Of a stretch of 64,000 bases of DNA, positions 53,991 through 59,521 are shown in pieces; the stretch's first letter is position 1, and the number at the start of each line of letters is the position of its first letter. Origin of the DNA: Pseudomonadota bacterium (GTDB lineage: Bacteria; Pseudomonadota; Gammaproteobacteria; Burkholderiales; Thiobacteraceae); NCBI GenBank assembly GCA_021812385.1, contig JAKANO010000001.1, positions 124,001 to 188,000 on the forward strand, read 5' to 3'. A program made the translations under genes and the position numbers. The notes beneath the pieces were generated by a model. The model was not told where the DNA came from and ran no database searches. It was given only the letters and a program-made list of their open reading frames with translations.

Positions 53991-55460
53991 TTAAAGATTG
54001 AGCGATCGATACAGCTGCAAATATTCTTGCGCGCTTTTTTGCCAAGAAAAATCCTTAGCCATGCCGGCGATTTGCAATTGCCGCCAAACCTTCGGTTCAT
54101 GCCGGTACAGATGAATCGCGTGGCGCAAGGCGGCAATCGCGGTATGGAAATGCATGTCGTAAAACAGGATGCCGCTGGCTCGGCCGCTAGCAATATTTTC
54201 GGCAGTGGCATCGACGATGGTATCCGCCAGCCCGCCGGTTGCGTGCGCTACCGGCGGCGTGCCATAACGCTGGCTGTACATTTGGTTGAGCCCGCAGGGT
54301 TCGAAACGCGATGGCATGAGAAAGATATCCGCACCCGCTTCGATGCGATGCGATAAGCGCTCGTCGTAGCCGATATTGATGCTGATGCGGCCGGGGTGGT
54401 TGAGCGCCAGTTTGCGAAATGCACGTTCCAGTTCTTTGTCGCCGCTTCCGAGCAATACGAATTGCACGCCTTCGCGCACCAAGTCGTGCATCATCCCTAA
54501 AATAGTATCCGAACCCTTTTGATAGGTAATGCGCGAGACGATGGCGACTAAGGGCGCATGCGCATCCAGGTGCAGGCCTATGTCATGTTGTAACGCGGAT
54601 TTGTTCAGTGCCTTGTCGTTTAATTGCTGGGCGCTATAAGCCTTGGCCAGATGCGGGTCGGTTTCCGGATTCCATTCTTGGGTGTCGATGCCGTTGATGA
54701 TGCCACTCAGCACGCCGCGTCGTTCATGCAGCAAGCCTTGCATGCCGAAACCCAAGGTTTCATGCTGAATTTCGCGTGCGTAGGTGGGGCTCACGGTGGT
54801 GATGCGGTCGCAATAAAACAGTCCGGCCTTGAGGAATGACAGGTGGCCGTAATACTCCAGCCCTTGTAATTTGAAGCTCTCCGGCGGGAGGTGGAGCGCA
54901 TGCACCATATCCGCCGCAAACACGCCTTGGTAGGCGAGATTGTGGATGGTCAAGATGCTGGAGGCTTTACGCCCCGCCCAAAAGCGTAAATAAGCCGGGG
55001 CTAGACCGGTCTGCCAATCGTTGCAATGCACGATGTCCGGCTGCCAGGCGCTGCTATTGTCGCGGCTGCCAAGCCAAGCGGCGACGTAGGATAGCAGGGC
55101 GAAACGCTGCGGGTTATCCGGCCAGTCGTTGCCGCCGCCGGTTTGATAGGGGCCGCCGTCGCGGTTATAGAAGGCATCATAAGCGACGATAAGTACCGGT
55201 AAACCGCTTTCCGGTAAGCGCGATTCCATTAAATGGATTTCGCCGGGCGCGAACGGATTGGCTAGCGTTGCGAAGGGAGTCATGTCGCGGCACTTAGCCA
55301 AAACCGCGCGGTAGCCGGGAATGAGTAATTTGATATCGATGCCCAGGGCGTGCAAGGCGCTGGGCAAGGCGCCGGAAACATCCGCCAGGCCGCCGGTTTT
55401 AATCAGAGGATGGGCTTCCGAAGTGGCGAATAATACTTTTGGATGGCGTGCGCTTGTCAT
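53991..55460 (-). CDS. glgA: Glycogen synthase (ADP-glucose type)
   Basis: A 489-residue GT5 glycosyltransferase that elongates alpha-1,4-glucan from ADP-glucose. KTGGLADVSGALP (residues 21-33) binds the sugar nucleotide; VSRITYQKGSD and MPSRFEPCGLNQMYSQRYG are further family motifs. It is intact. A partial, broken second copy lies at 57490-57828, and the upstream sequences of both start codons are nearly identical (cttgtcatggtttaattgcgg on the plus strand), so the two derive from a duplication. gnd lies between them. Confidence 0.95.
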   Translation of the reverse strand: MTSARHPKVLFATSEAHPLIKTGGLADVSGALPSALHALGIDIKLLIPGYRAVLAKCRDMTPFATLANPFAPGEIHLMESRLPESGLPVLIVAYDAFYNRDGGPYQTGGGNDWPDNPQRFALLSYVAAWLGSRDNSSAWQPDIVHCNDWQTGLAPAYLRFWAGRKASSILTIHNLAYQGVFAADMVHALHLPPESFKLQGLEYYGHLSFLKAGLFYCDRITTVSPTYAREIQHETLGFGMQGLLHERRGVLSGIINGIDTQEWNPETDPHLAKAYSAQQLNDKALNKSALQHDIGLHLDAHAPLVAIVSRITYQKGSDTILGMMHDLVREGVQFVLLGSGDKELERAFRKLALNHPGRISINIGYDERLSHRIEAGADIFLMPSRFEPCGLNQMYSQRYGTPPVAHATGGLADTIVDATAENIASGRASGILFYDMHFHTAIAALRHAIHLYRHEPKVWRQLQIAGMAKDFSWQKSAQEYLQLYRSLNL

Positions 55461-55578
55461 GGTTTAATTGCGGAATGTGGTGCGTTACAGTGGAAAGCGT
55501 GAAAGTATAACAAAGCGCCGTGCATCATTTTTGGTTTGGCAGTTTTAGTTTCCTCTGTGATGTTAACAAGAAAAGAAA

Positions 55579-55702
55579 ACTAAAGGGGTCAGCTGCGCTT
55601 TGTTTTTTCTATCGATCGCCATACCCATCCTCTCCTGTTCAGAATCCGAAATCGACTGGTGTTTGTGTTTCACTCGGTTGATTCGATTTAGCCCCCTTTA
55701 GT
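55579..55702. repeat. Element with 10-bp terminal inverted repeats
   Basis: actaaagggg (55579-55588) and cccctttagt (55693-55702) are perfect inverted repeats 104 nt apart. The left end aaaggggtcag recalls REP sequences linked to single-strand transposases, but no transposase is encoded here. It lies next to the inserted gnd. Confidence 0.5.
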
Positions 55703-55773
55703 GCCTCCTCGCGCATCGGTGTGCCGCCGGCAGGGCGAAGAATTAGGCGGGTCGTCGTCGACGGGGGCCCCAA

Positions 55774-55807
55774 ACGAAAACGGCGACCCGCAGGCCGCCG
55801 TTTTCGT
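55774..55807. terminator. Terminator of gnd
   Basis: A 12-bp perfect stem (acgaaaacggcg / cgccgttttcgt) with a 10-nt loop, 17 nt past the gnd stop on the minus strand, followed there by TTTG. The A/T tracts inside the stem give both-strand potential. Confidence 0.75.
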
Positions 55808-55823
55808 CGTCAACTGATTGCGC

Positions 55824-57377
55824 TCAGCTGCGGTTCATGCCCATCTCGGAGAGCTTGAGCTGGGGACGCTTCGGGTCCGGCCAATCAATGTGGAACATCT
55901 CGCCGCGCGGCTGATCGGTGCGCTCGTAGGTGTGGGCACCGAAAAAGTCGCGCTGCGCCTGCAGGAGGTTCGCGGGTAACGTCTCGCTGCGGTAGCTGTC
56001 GAAGTACGAGAGGGCCGAAGCGAACACCGGGACCGGCGTGCCGTCGAGCGCTGCGCGGGCCACGACCTTGCGCCAGTTGCTCTGCGACTCGGTGACCTTG
56101 CCGGCGAAATACGGATCGAGCAGCAGGTTCTGCAACTTGGGGTTCTTCACGAAGGCATCGGTGATTTTCTGCAGGAATCCGGCGCGGATGATGCAGCCGC
56201 CGCGGAAGATCTTGGCAAGCTCGCCGAGCTTGAGGTCCCAATTGTATTCTTGCGATGCCGCCGCGTAGAGCGCGAAGCCCTGCGCGTAGCAGCACAGCTT
56301 GGAGCAGTAGAGCGCGTCACGCACGGCGTCGACGGTGATCTCCACGGCTTTGCCCAGGCCCTCGGATCCCTTGAGTACCTTGCTGGCGGCGACACGCTCG
56401 TCTTTGATGGCCGAGATGCAGCGCGCGAACACGGCTTCGGCGACGGAAGACGCCGGGACGCCAAGGTCGAGGGCGTTGATCGAGGTCCACTTGCCCGTGC
56501 CCTTTTGGCCGGCGGTGTCGAGGACGACGTCGACGAAGGGCTTGCCGGTGACCGGATCCTTTTGCTGCAACACGTCGGCGCTGATCTCGATGAGGAAGGA
56601 ATTCAGGTCGCCCTTGTTCCACTCGGTCATGATCGCGGAGATCTCGGCGGGGCTCTTGCCCAGCGAGTTGCGCAGGATCGAGTAGGCCTCGCAGATGAGT
56701 TGCATGTCGCCGTACTCGATGCCGTTGTGCACCATCTTCACGTAGTGGCCGGCACCGTCGGGGCCGATGTAGGTGGTGCAGGGAACGCCGCCCTTGACGG
56801 GCTTGCCAGGGGCCGCGCCTTCGAGGGGCTTGCCGGTCTTCTCGTCGACCTTGGCCGCGCAGGCCATCCACACGGGTTTGAGGATTTCCCAGGACTCGGG
56901 CTTGCCGCCGGGCATGAGCGACGGGCCGAAGCGCGCGCCTTCTTCGCCGCCGCTGACGCCGGAGCCGACGAAGAGCAGGCCTTTGGCGGTCAGGTCTTTC
57001 TCGCGGCGGATGGTGTCGGTATAGAGCGCGTTGCCGCCGTCGACGATGACGTCGCCCTTGTCGAGCAGTGGGACGAGCGAGTCGATGACCGCGTCGGTGG
57101 GCTTGCCGGCCTTGACCAGGATCACGATGCGGCGGGGCGTTTTGATCGATGCGACGAAGTCTTTGAGCTCAGCCGCGGGCACGAGGCCGCCGCCGGTGTC
57201 GCCGAAGACTGCGGGTGGATTGGCGTCGACGAACTTCTCGGTGGTCGCGGTGGTGCGGTTGTAGACGGCAACCTTGAACCCGTGGTCGGCCATGTTGAGA
57301 ACGAGGTTCTGGCCCATAACGGCCAGGCCAACGAGGCCGACATCGGCAGAATTGGGGGTGGGCTTTTCAAACGCCAT
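55824..57377 (-). CDS. gnd: 6-phosphogluconate dehydrogenase, probably acquired
   Basis: Oxidatively decarboxylates 6-phosphogluconate to ribulose 5-phosphate. The 517-residue protein is of the long (E. coli-like) type: [19 protein letters not shown] binds the cofactor, [20 protein letters not shown] and [18 protein letters not shown] with the catalytic Lys form the active site. An insert around residues 180-195 ([20 protein letters not shown]) is unusual for proteobacterial enzymes and recalls Planctomycetes/Verrucomicrobia sequences (impression only). Base composition seems richer in GC than its neighbours. It interrupts a decayed glgA copy and lies opposite to the following zwf, so it was likely gained to replace the lost native gene. 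Confidence 0.93.
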
Positions 57378-57489
57378 AATTTAGGACTCCGGGGGCTGGG
57401 GGTTAGAGATCAGACGCCGATGATGGGAATTTCAACGCCATTTTTTTCCACTTTTTTAAGTGTCCTGAGTTTTTTAGTCGTAGTCAATC

Positions 57490-57828
57490 TGTATTTGTGT
57501 CGAAGAATCGCATGGCGCAAGGCGGCAATGCAGCTGTGAAAATGCATATCGTAAAACAACTCGCCGTTATCCGTGCCGGGCAGCTTCGATTCGATGATGC
57601 GGATATCCCAAGGCCCAAAAGAGTTAGGGAGAATGGCGAAAATGTCGGTGTGGCGGCATTTATCCCACACCTCGCGGTAGCCGGGAAGCAGCCGCTTGTT
57701 AATATCGGGCCCTGGGTGTGCAAAGCCGCGGGCAGGGCACCGGATCCATCGGCCAGCCCGCCGGTTTTCATTAGGGGGTGAGCCTCTGAGGTCGCGAATA
57801 ATACTTTAGGTTGGCTTGCGCTTGTCAT
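57490..57828 (-). pseudogene. glgA: Remnant of duplicated glgA with internal deletion and frameshift
   Basis: Begins with MTSASQPKVLFATSEAHPLM and KTGGLADGSGALPAALHTQG, clearly the first 40 residues of GlgA. The frame then shifts; a second frame continues with KCRHTDIFAILPNSFGPWDI and IRIIESKLPG, matching residues about 62-86 of the intact copy, and jumps to FYDMHFHSCIAALRHAI, which matches residues near 435. Roughly 340 codons are missing. No glucan-synthase activity can remain. The homology ends near 57490, where unrelated sequence leading to gnd begins. Confidence 0.9.
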
Positions 57829-57946
57829 GGTTTAATTGCGGAAACTGGTGCGTTACAATGTTTTCAACGGCCAGCATAGCAAAGCGAACGTCGCGCTTTC
57901 GGCGGTGTAGGTATTTCTCCTCTTCAGTGAAGAAAAGGGTCTTAAA

Positions 57947-58024
57947 ATGAAAATCGTCATGATTGGCTTGGGTCGGATGGGTGGCAATATGGCGCGACGC
58001 TCAAGCGGCGGCGGGGAAAAGTAA
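57947..58024 (+). pseudogene. gnd: N-terminal fossil of a second type 6-phosphogluconate dehydrogenase
   Basis: An ATG-started 25-codon frame begins MKIVMIGLGRMGGNMARR and then hits SSGGGEK and a stop. This start is the cofactor-binding N-terminus of the shorter, decarboxylating 6-phosphogluconate dehydrogenase type (GndA/YqeC-like, TIGR00872-like). It stops 9 nt before zwf copy 2. In relatives such a gene often precedes zwf, so the native gnd seems to have been deleted almost completely. A very short leader peptide is an alternative reading. Confidence 0.75.
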
Positions 58025-58033
58025 CCCAAGCCC

Positions 58034-59521
58034 ATGAAAAAAAATTCCGTAACGGAAGCGCCTTGCAGCTTCGTGATTTTCGGGGCCACTGGAAATCTCT
58101 CGCAGATCAAACTGCTGCCCGCGTTGTATCACTTGGAGCGGGCACAGCGCTTGCCGACGGAAATGAGTTTGTTTGCCTTTGGCCGACGCCCTTTTTCCCA
58201 GGAAGATTGGCGCGCCTTGATGGAAGAGGCGTTGCGTAAGAAGTTGGGCGATAAATTCGATGCGGATCTGTTCGATAAATTCGCCCAACGTTTTACCTAT
58301 GTCCAAGGGGAGCTGCATCGGCATGAGGATTACACCAAGCTGAAAGAAGCGCTCGCCACCCCGAAGATGGGCAGCTGCACCAATGTAATTTTTTATCTGG
58401 CGATCAAGCCGACGGAATTCGGCGCCGTCATCAACAACCTGGATAAATCCGGCCTGAATAAGCCGCGCGGCCTGCATCGCATCGTGGTGGAAAAACCGTT
58501 CGGCGAGGATATCGAAACCGCGCAAATGTTGAATGGCTTGTTGCATAAGCATTTCGACGAAGAGCAGGTGTTCCGCATCGACCATTACCTAGGCAAGGAG
58601 TCGGTGCAAAATCTGTTGGTGTTCCGCTTCGCCAATACGCTGATCGAACCGCTGTGGAACCGCAACTTCATCGACCATGTGCAGATCACCGTGGCCGAAG
58701 AAGTCGGCATCGGCAAGCGTGCGGATTATTACGACAAGACCGGCGCCATGCGCGACATGCTGCAAAACCATTTGATGCAATTGTTGACGGTGGTGGCGAT
58801 GGAGCCGCCGGCCAGCCTGGATGCCGACGCGGTGCGCGATGAGAAAGTCAAGGTGCTGCGCTCGATCCGGCCGATCTCCAAGCGCTCGGTGCATGCGCAT
58901 GCGTTCCGCGCCCAGTACGCGGCCGGCACGGTGAATGGCGAGCAAGTCCCGGCCTACGCTGACGAAGAAGGCGTGGAAGAAGATTCCATCACGGAAACCT
59001 TCGCCGCCGCCAAGTTCTATATCGATAACTGGCGCTGGCGCGGCGTGCCGTTTTATTTGCGCACCGGCAAGCGCATGGCGAAGCAGACCTCGATGATCGC
59101 CATCCGCTTCAAGCATCCGCCGCAACAATTGTTCCGCGAAACGCCGGTGGAAACCATCGCCCCCAACTGGGTGCTGCTGTCCTTGCAACCGGAGGAAAGC
59201 ATGCACATGGAAATCCACGTCAAGAAACCGGGCTTGGAGATGGATACGCGGGTGTTGAAGCTGAATGCCTCGTACCTGGGCAGCGGCGAAGCGGCGCTCG
59301 ACGCCTACGAGAACTTGCTGTTGGATGTGATCGAAGGCGACCGCACTTTATTCATTCGATTCGACGAAGTGGAATGGGCGTGGCGCGTGGTCGATCCCAT
59401 TCTCAAATATTGGGCGATGGAGCGTGATTACATCCATACCTATCCGGCCGGCACTTGGGGCTTGCATGAAGCCGGGCGCTTGTTCGACGGCGAAGATCAG
59501 GAGTGGCGCAACGAGGTGTAA
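58034..59521 (+). CDS. zwf: Glucose-6-phosphate dehydrogenase (copy 2)
   Basis: A 495-residue full-length enzyme with [16 protein letters not shown] at the start and [10 protein letters not shown] in the middle. It differs strongly from copy 1 (2057) and has the standard length, so it is likely the housekeeping enzyme of the oxidative pentose phosphate pathway. The ribosome site is weak (a GGGG run about 17 nt before the ATG), perhaps because the upstream gnd has been deleted. pgl follows on the same strand after 86 nt. Confidence 0.95.

Follow-up and report, generated by a model that had tools for sequence, protein, structure and literature searches.

A question raised by this locus is how a central metabolic gene can vanish from the front of an operon, and whether the piece left behind still serves the gene that follows. 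In the window, that is, the whole stretch of 64,000 nucleotides analysed here, zwf for glucose-6-phosphate dehydrogenase (58034..59521, + strand) is preceded on the same strand by a frame of 25 codons (57947..58024) which is translated as MKIVMIGLGRMGGNMARRSSGGGEK and then stops. The earlier note had read this frame as the cofactor-binding start of the native short-type 6-phosphogluconate dehydrogenase (6PGDH) gene, gnd, cut off after 18 recognisable residues and ending 9 nt before zwf. The 9-nt distance is correct, and the origin from gnd is confirmed at both the protein and the DNA level. Short- and long-chain 6PGDHs are established subfamilies (PMC8900737), and in a profile search the 25 residues matched the short-chain families NF007161 (E 2.1e-4) and TIGR00872 (E 1.1e-3) at model positions 1-23, these two ranking above all other families, and the DNA of the frame is 77-87% identical to the intact short gnd start of relatives over 54-82 nt (E down to 5e-13). 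The cofactor-binding start was thus rightly recognised, but the homology extends beyond residue 18 to about codon 22-23, after which come a short tail, which may hold the last codons of gnd, and the stop codon. In the relatives the intact gene is a member of the short-chain families; the stub corresponds to its first ~23 codons and scores 18.3 bits against TIGR00872 (positions 1-23), below the curated cut-off of 297.2 bits. As judged from these matches, the stub is a remnant of a short-chain 6PGDH and not a member of the family, and it is without enzymatic role, with nearly the whole of the cofactor-binding and catalytic domains missing.

The ancestral state of the locus can be read in the relatives, most of which are draft genomes. 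A TIGR00872 protein above the cut-off is encoded in six of the eight genomes from the same genus and in both from the family's other genus, and it is missing from exactly two genomes, that of the window (G000) and G004, which are those with a long-type gnd. In all eight relatives without the long type, a short-type gnd of 305 codons lies between zwf and an opposite-strand glgA (glgP> <glgA gnd> zwf>), and its TGA overlaps the ATG of zwf as ATGA. The order orn, glgP, glgA, gnd, zwf, pgl, dnaE is otherwise conserved within the reach of the draft contigs; the zwf-pgl interval is ~4 kb in G002 and G005 (L027, L028) and the pgl-dnaE interval ~3 kb in G001 (L024), as against ~0.1 kb each in the window. 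The comparison which the earlier note had proposed, for a full short-type gnd in sister species, placed between glgA and zwf, therefore came out in its favour, and neither of the two outcomes named there as contrary, a leader peptide conserved in relatives or no gnd there in any relative, was seen. It is hardly conceivable that the frame is instead a conserved zwf leader peptide merely resembling the start of gnd: it does stand before zwf in two species, but the same start codon opens the 305-codon gnd in eight relatives and in G004 the end of gnd continues in frame. The intact gnd which the relatives have in this place refutes a leader peptide of chance resemblance.

G000 and G004 are sister species, with 100/100 support in glgP, zwf, orn and pgl, and share a derived order of intact glgA, same-strand long gnd, decayed second glgA, gnd scar and zwf. 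The scar frame of G004 is translated as MKIVMIGLGRMDGNMARCLSGDGHAMNAGDGNKP and is 34 codons long, as against 25 in the window; its TGA overlaps the ATG of zwf as in the relatives, whereas in the window the overlap is replaced by the 9-nt gap. The front of the G004 frame matches gnd codons 1 to ~22-23 and its tail, GHAMNAGDG, matches codons 295-304 in frame (23/30 nt in G006). Among shuffled sequences none of 300 was as good for G006 and one of 300 for G005; the tail match is significant against the nearest relatives only, and in three of the eight relatives the best match is elsewhere in the gene. Because front and tail match the two ends of gnd, the G004 scar is, by alignment, an in-frame internal deletion which joins the first ~22 to the last ~10 codons, with ~270 codons gone. 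The hexamer GGCGGY occurs at both break points, codons 22-23 and 295-296, in the aligned sequences of close relatives. The nearly complete deletion claimed in the earlier note thus holds in so far as the gene is reduced to a scar, but it is an internal deletion that keeps the 3' end (G004) and not a simple truncation; a truncation after codon 18 is ruled out by the homology to ~codon 22-23 and by the in-frame 3' end in G004. In the window, the shared front is followed by SSGGGEK and the stop codon. The candidate GGGEK is plausible as a remnant of the gnd C-terminus, but its length is too small for proof, and in the simplest reading ~9 further codons would have been lost in the window relative to G004, again in frame.

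An assembly or binning error as the cause of the missing intact gnd can practically be dismissed. The assembly to which the window belongs is 93.8% complete and, as mentioned, most relatives are drafts, but the same arrangement and scar occur independently in G004, with different later decay, and this argues against assembly error. In addition, the window lies on a contig of 305 kb, and a search of the whole G000 genome with an intact short gnd as query gave only the stub (E 7.8e-5), the long gnd and a remote dehydrogenase, so that no second short-type gnd was found there besides the stub.

The long-type gnd, here called gndL, was correctly placed by the earlier note on the opposite strand of the locus. 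It occupies 55824..57377 (- strand), encodes 517 amino acids and scores 693.6 bits against TIGR00873 (cut-off 426.7). The copies of G000 and G004 are 97% identical, and the GC content is 63-68%, as against 52-58% in flanking sequence. In the tree, gndL is the sister of a Myxococcota MAG protein, to which it is 80% identical, and then of Phycisphaerae, with a support of 100, and its closest homologues elsewhere within the order are only ~61-62% identical. Because of this grouping, the GC excess and the low identity within the order, gndL most likely came from a source far outside the order. The gene retains the active-site stretch. Both enzymes also contain an Asn-Arg-X motif, NRS in the lost short type and NRT in the long type, and since this motif is typical of NADP-specific 6PGDH (PMC8900737), nothing points to a change of cofactor; the sequence agrees with the same reaction as that of the native enzyme. 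The region upstream of gndL (57378..57515, - strand) is found within the genus only in G000 and G004. Within it, 49 of 50 bases at 57453-57502 are the same in G004, no other same-genus genome having the region, and this segment is probably the promoter or leader of gndL.

A further component of the locus, absent from the earlier note, is a decayed duplicate of glgA (57484..57828, - strand) which sits between gndL and the gnd scar. The intact glgA is at 53991..55460 (- strand), and the spacer between it and gndL (55461..55823) is poorly conserved, with 177 of 363 bases alignable to G004. The fossil in the window comprises codons 1 to ~84, frameshifted, and then ~432-450, with an internal deletion of ~1.05 kb and the 3' end missing, and that of G004 comprises codons 1-114 and ~366-405; frameshifts are present in both species. 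The two fossils pair together (0.997) and then with the intact copies of G000 and G004 (0.999), and the homology between fossil and intact glgA reaches ~30 nt upstream of the start. Consequently, glgA was duplicated in the G000/G004 lineage around the incoming gnd, and an older, genus-wide tandem paralogue is ruled out by the tree. Either a tandem duplication with insertion took place, or a second glgA came in on an integrated fragment. Between the divergently oriented fossil and scar lies an intergenic region (57829..57946, + strand), the site of the old gnd-zwf promoter and leader; positions 57778-57877 are ~90% identical in G004.

That a foreign gene can take the place of an ancestral one is well established under the name of xenologous gene displacement (PMC1274311; compare the "gene displacement in situ" of Omelchenko et al. 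2003, as cited in PMC1274311 and PMC4481853), and the locus very probably represents such a displacement with its scar in place, the retained leader of zwf included. The ancestral gene is at the locus in every genus or family genome without gndL (8/8), the newcomer has its affinity to another lineage, and the ancestral gene is lost from the G000 genome with the stub alone left. In the proposed course of events, the long gnd would have arrived, together with the duplication of glgA, in the common ancestor of G000 and G004, and gndL would then have taken over the 6-phosphogluconate step, by which the native gnd and the second glgA were freed from selection. The native gnd would have lost its ~270 codons by the in-frame internal deletion, and the glgA copy would have decayed by frameshifts and by separate deletions in each species. 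The order of these events is not directly seen, because no genome is known which has an intact short gnd and gndL together at this locus. We infer gain of gndL before loss of the native gene as the economical order; the earlier claim that the loss was tolerated as another gene took over is thus supported by the relatives as to the displacement and remains inference as to gain followed by deletion. Co-existence of both types is viable, since an intact short-type and a long-type gnd occur together in five genomes (G034, G080, G196, G312 and G340) from one other family of the order. In these genomes the long types (L115-L119) are ~61% identical to that of the window, and the short types are L127-L131.

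It is also conceivable, though rather unlikely, that the cassette of gndL, glgA fossil and gnd scar arose in one lineage and passed to the other by recombination after the two species had split. The synonymous divergence of gndL between the species (NG86 0.35, YN00 0.57) is below that of seven neighbouring genes (NG86 0.82-1.81, YN00 0.78-1.29), and, taken in windows of 50 nt, the non-coding scar region has an identity of ~71-98%, as against 42-67% in control intergenic regions. However, high GC codon usage may depress the apparent synonymous change, the boundaries match gene ends with no stretch of glgA or zwf transferred along, and the two species are sisters in neighbouring genes, so that vertical descent from one event suffices.

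Like other cases of xenologous gene displacement, this one involves a gene acquired horizontally from another lineage, which has taken over the locus of the ancestral gene and its metabolic step. It differs from them in that a readable scar of the old gene persists in two species, in that the newcomer is from the other subfamily, being long-chain where the old enzyme was short-chain, and in that it lies on the opposite strand, outside the old operon, with glgA duplicated alongside. A search of the available literature found no report of this case; it is a well preserved example of displacement with a readable scar and not a new kind of system. For central metabolic genes, replacement by a foreign gene is as a rule deduced from nothing but trees. 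At this locus the state before (eight relatives), the state after (two species) and the physical scar are all readable, including the removal of the old gene without breaking of the operon behind it. Furthermore, the locus offers a direct test of whether a translationally coupled operon that loses its first gene must keep a translated stub of it.

Whether the stub has a present role is the part of the question to which two answers come into consideration. According to one, the remnant of the displaced gnd was taken over as a leader cistron which sets the translation of zwf and was kept by selection in two species. The deletion spared the promoter region of the operon, the start codon of gnd and a short frame that stays open as far as zwf or just before it, probably because zwf still depends on this leader. 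Removal of the first gene of the operon would thus have given a new regulatory mini-ORF, which, if active at all, would be a translated leader handing ribosomes on to zwf. We regard such a regulatory role as a tentative proposal, somewhat less probable than the other answer, to which we give about an even chance, namely that the history is the same and the stub is now debris without a role, still readable as the deletion is fairly recent or on account of its position between promoter and zwf. The latter contests the leader part alone and not the displacement.

The ribosome-binding sites are in keeping with the leader proposal as far as zwf is concerned. The predicted site of zwf is -6 to -10 kcal/mol in the relatives, where it lies within the gnd 3' end, as against -3.8 and -3.9 kcal/mol in the two scarred species, so that in neither of these does zwf have a good site of its own, a fact which speaks against mere debris. 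The predicted site of the mini-ORF is itself weak in both (-4.5 and -4.4 kcal/mol). Also against mere debris, the frame has stayed open in the two species and stops at or just before the zwf start despite later indels (ATGA overlap in G004, 9-nt gap in the window), while the adjoining glgA fossil is frameshifted in both; in the window, however, strict coupling has gone with the ATGA overlap. Over its first 54 nt the mini-ORF shows 94% identity between G000 and G004, as compared with 78% in the spacer before it, 49% in the tail behind these 54 nt, 73% in the glgA fossil and ~71-83% in most other parts of the scar region, and the control intergenic regions of 42-67% likewise tell against simple decay. 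This signal is short and modest, with p ~0.003-0.012 at the 17-20% divergence of the scar region, and fits neutral debris as well; two of the three differences within the 54 nt alter the amino acid, and the region has two further conserved islands, one upstream of gndL and one in the old glgA/gnd promoter region. A sigma-70 consensus scan found no + strand promoter ahead of the mini-ORF at the stringency used, an Rfam scan of the locus matched nothing, and the RNA fold of the leader is, in both species, no more stable than shuffled sequences, the last being a point in favour of debris.

As a leader, the mini-ORF would resemble the bicistronic leader-cistron designs, such as that of PMC5995908, in being a short frame ahead of an expressed gene with its stop at or just before the next start. 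Unlike those designs, it owes its origin to the deletion of a native gene, and it is a putative leader whose own ribosome-binding site is weak. In the window, positions 57958-57973, which fall in codons 4-9 of the mini-ORF, are complementary to 58024-58036 in the zwf start region (GGCTTGGGT with ACCCAAGCC, CATG with CATG). The helix is absent in G004 and the whole fold is no better than shuffles; by way of this window-only helix, ribosomes translating the mini-ORF could make the zwf start accessible.
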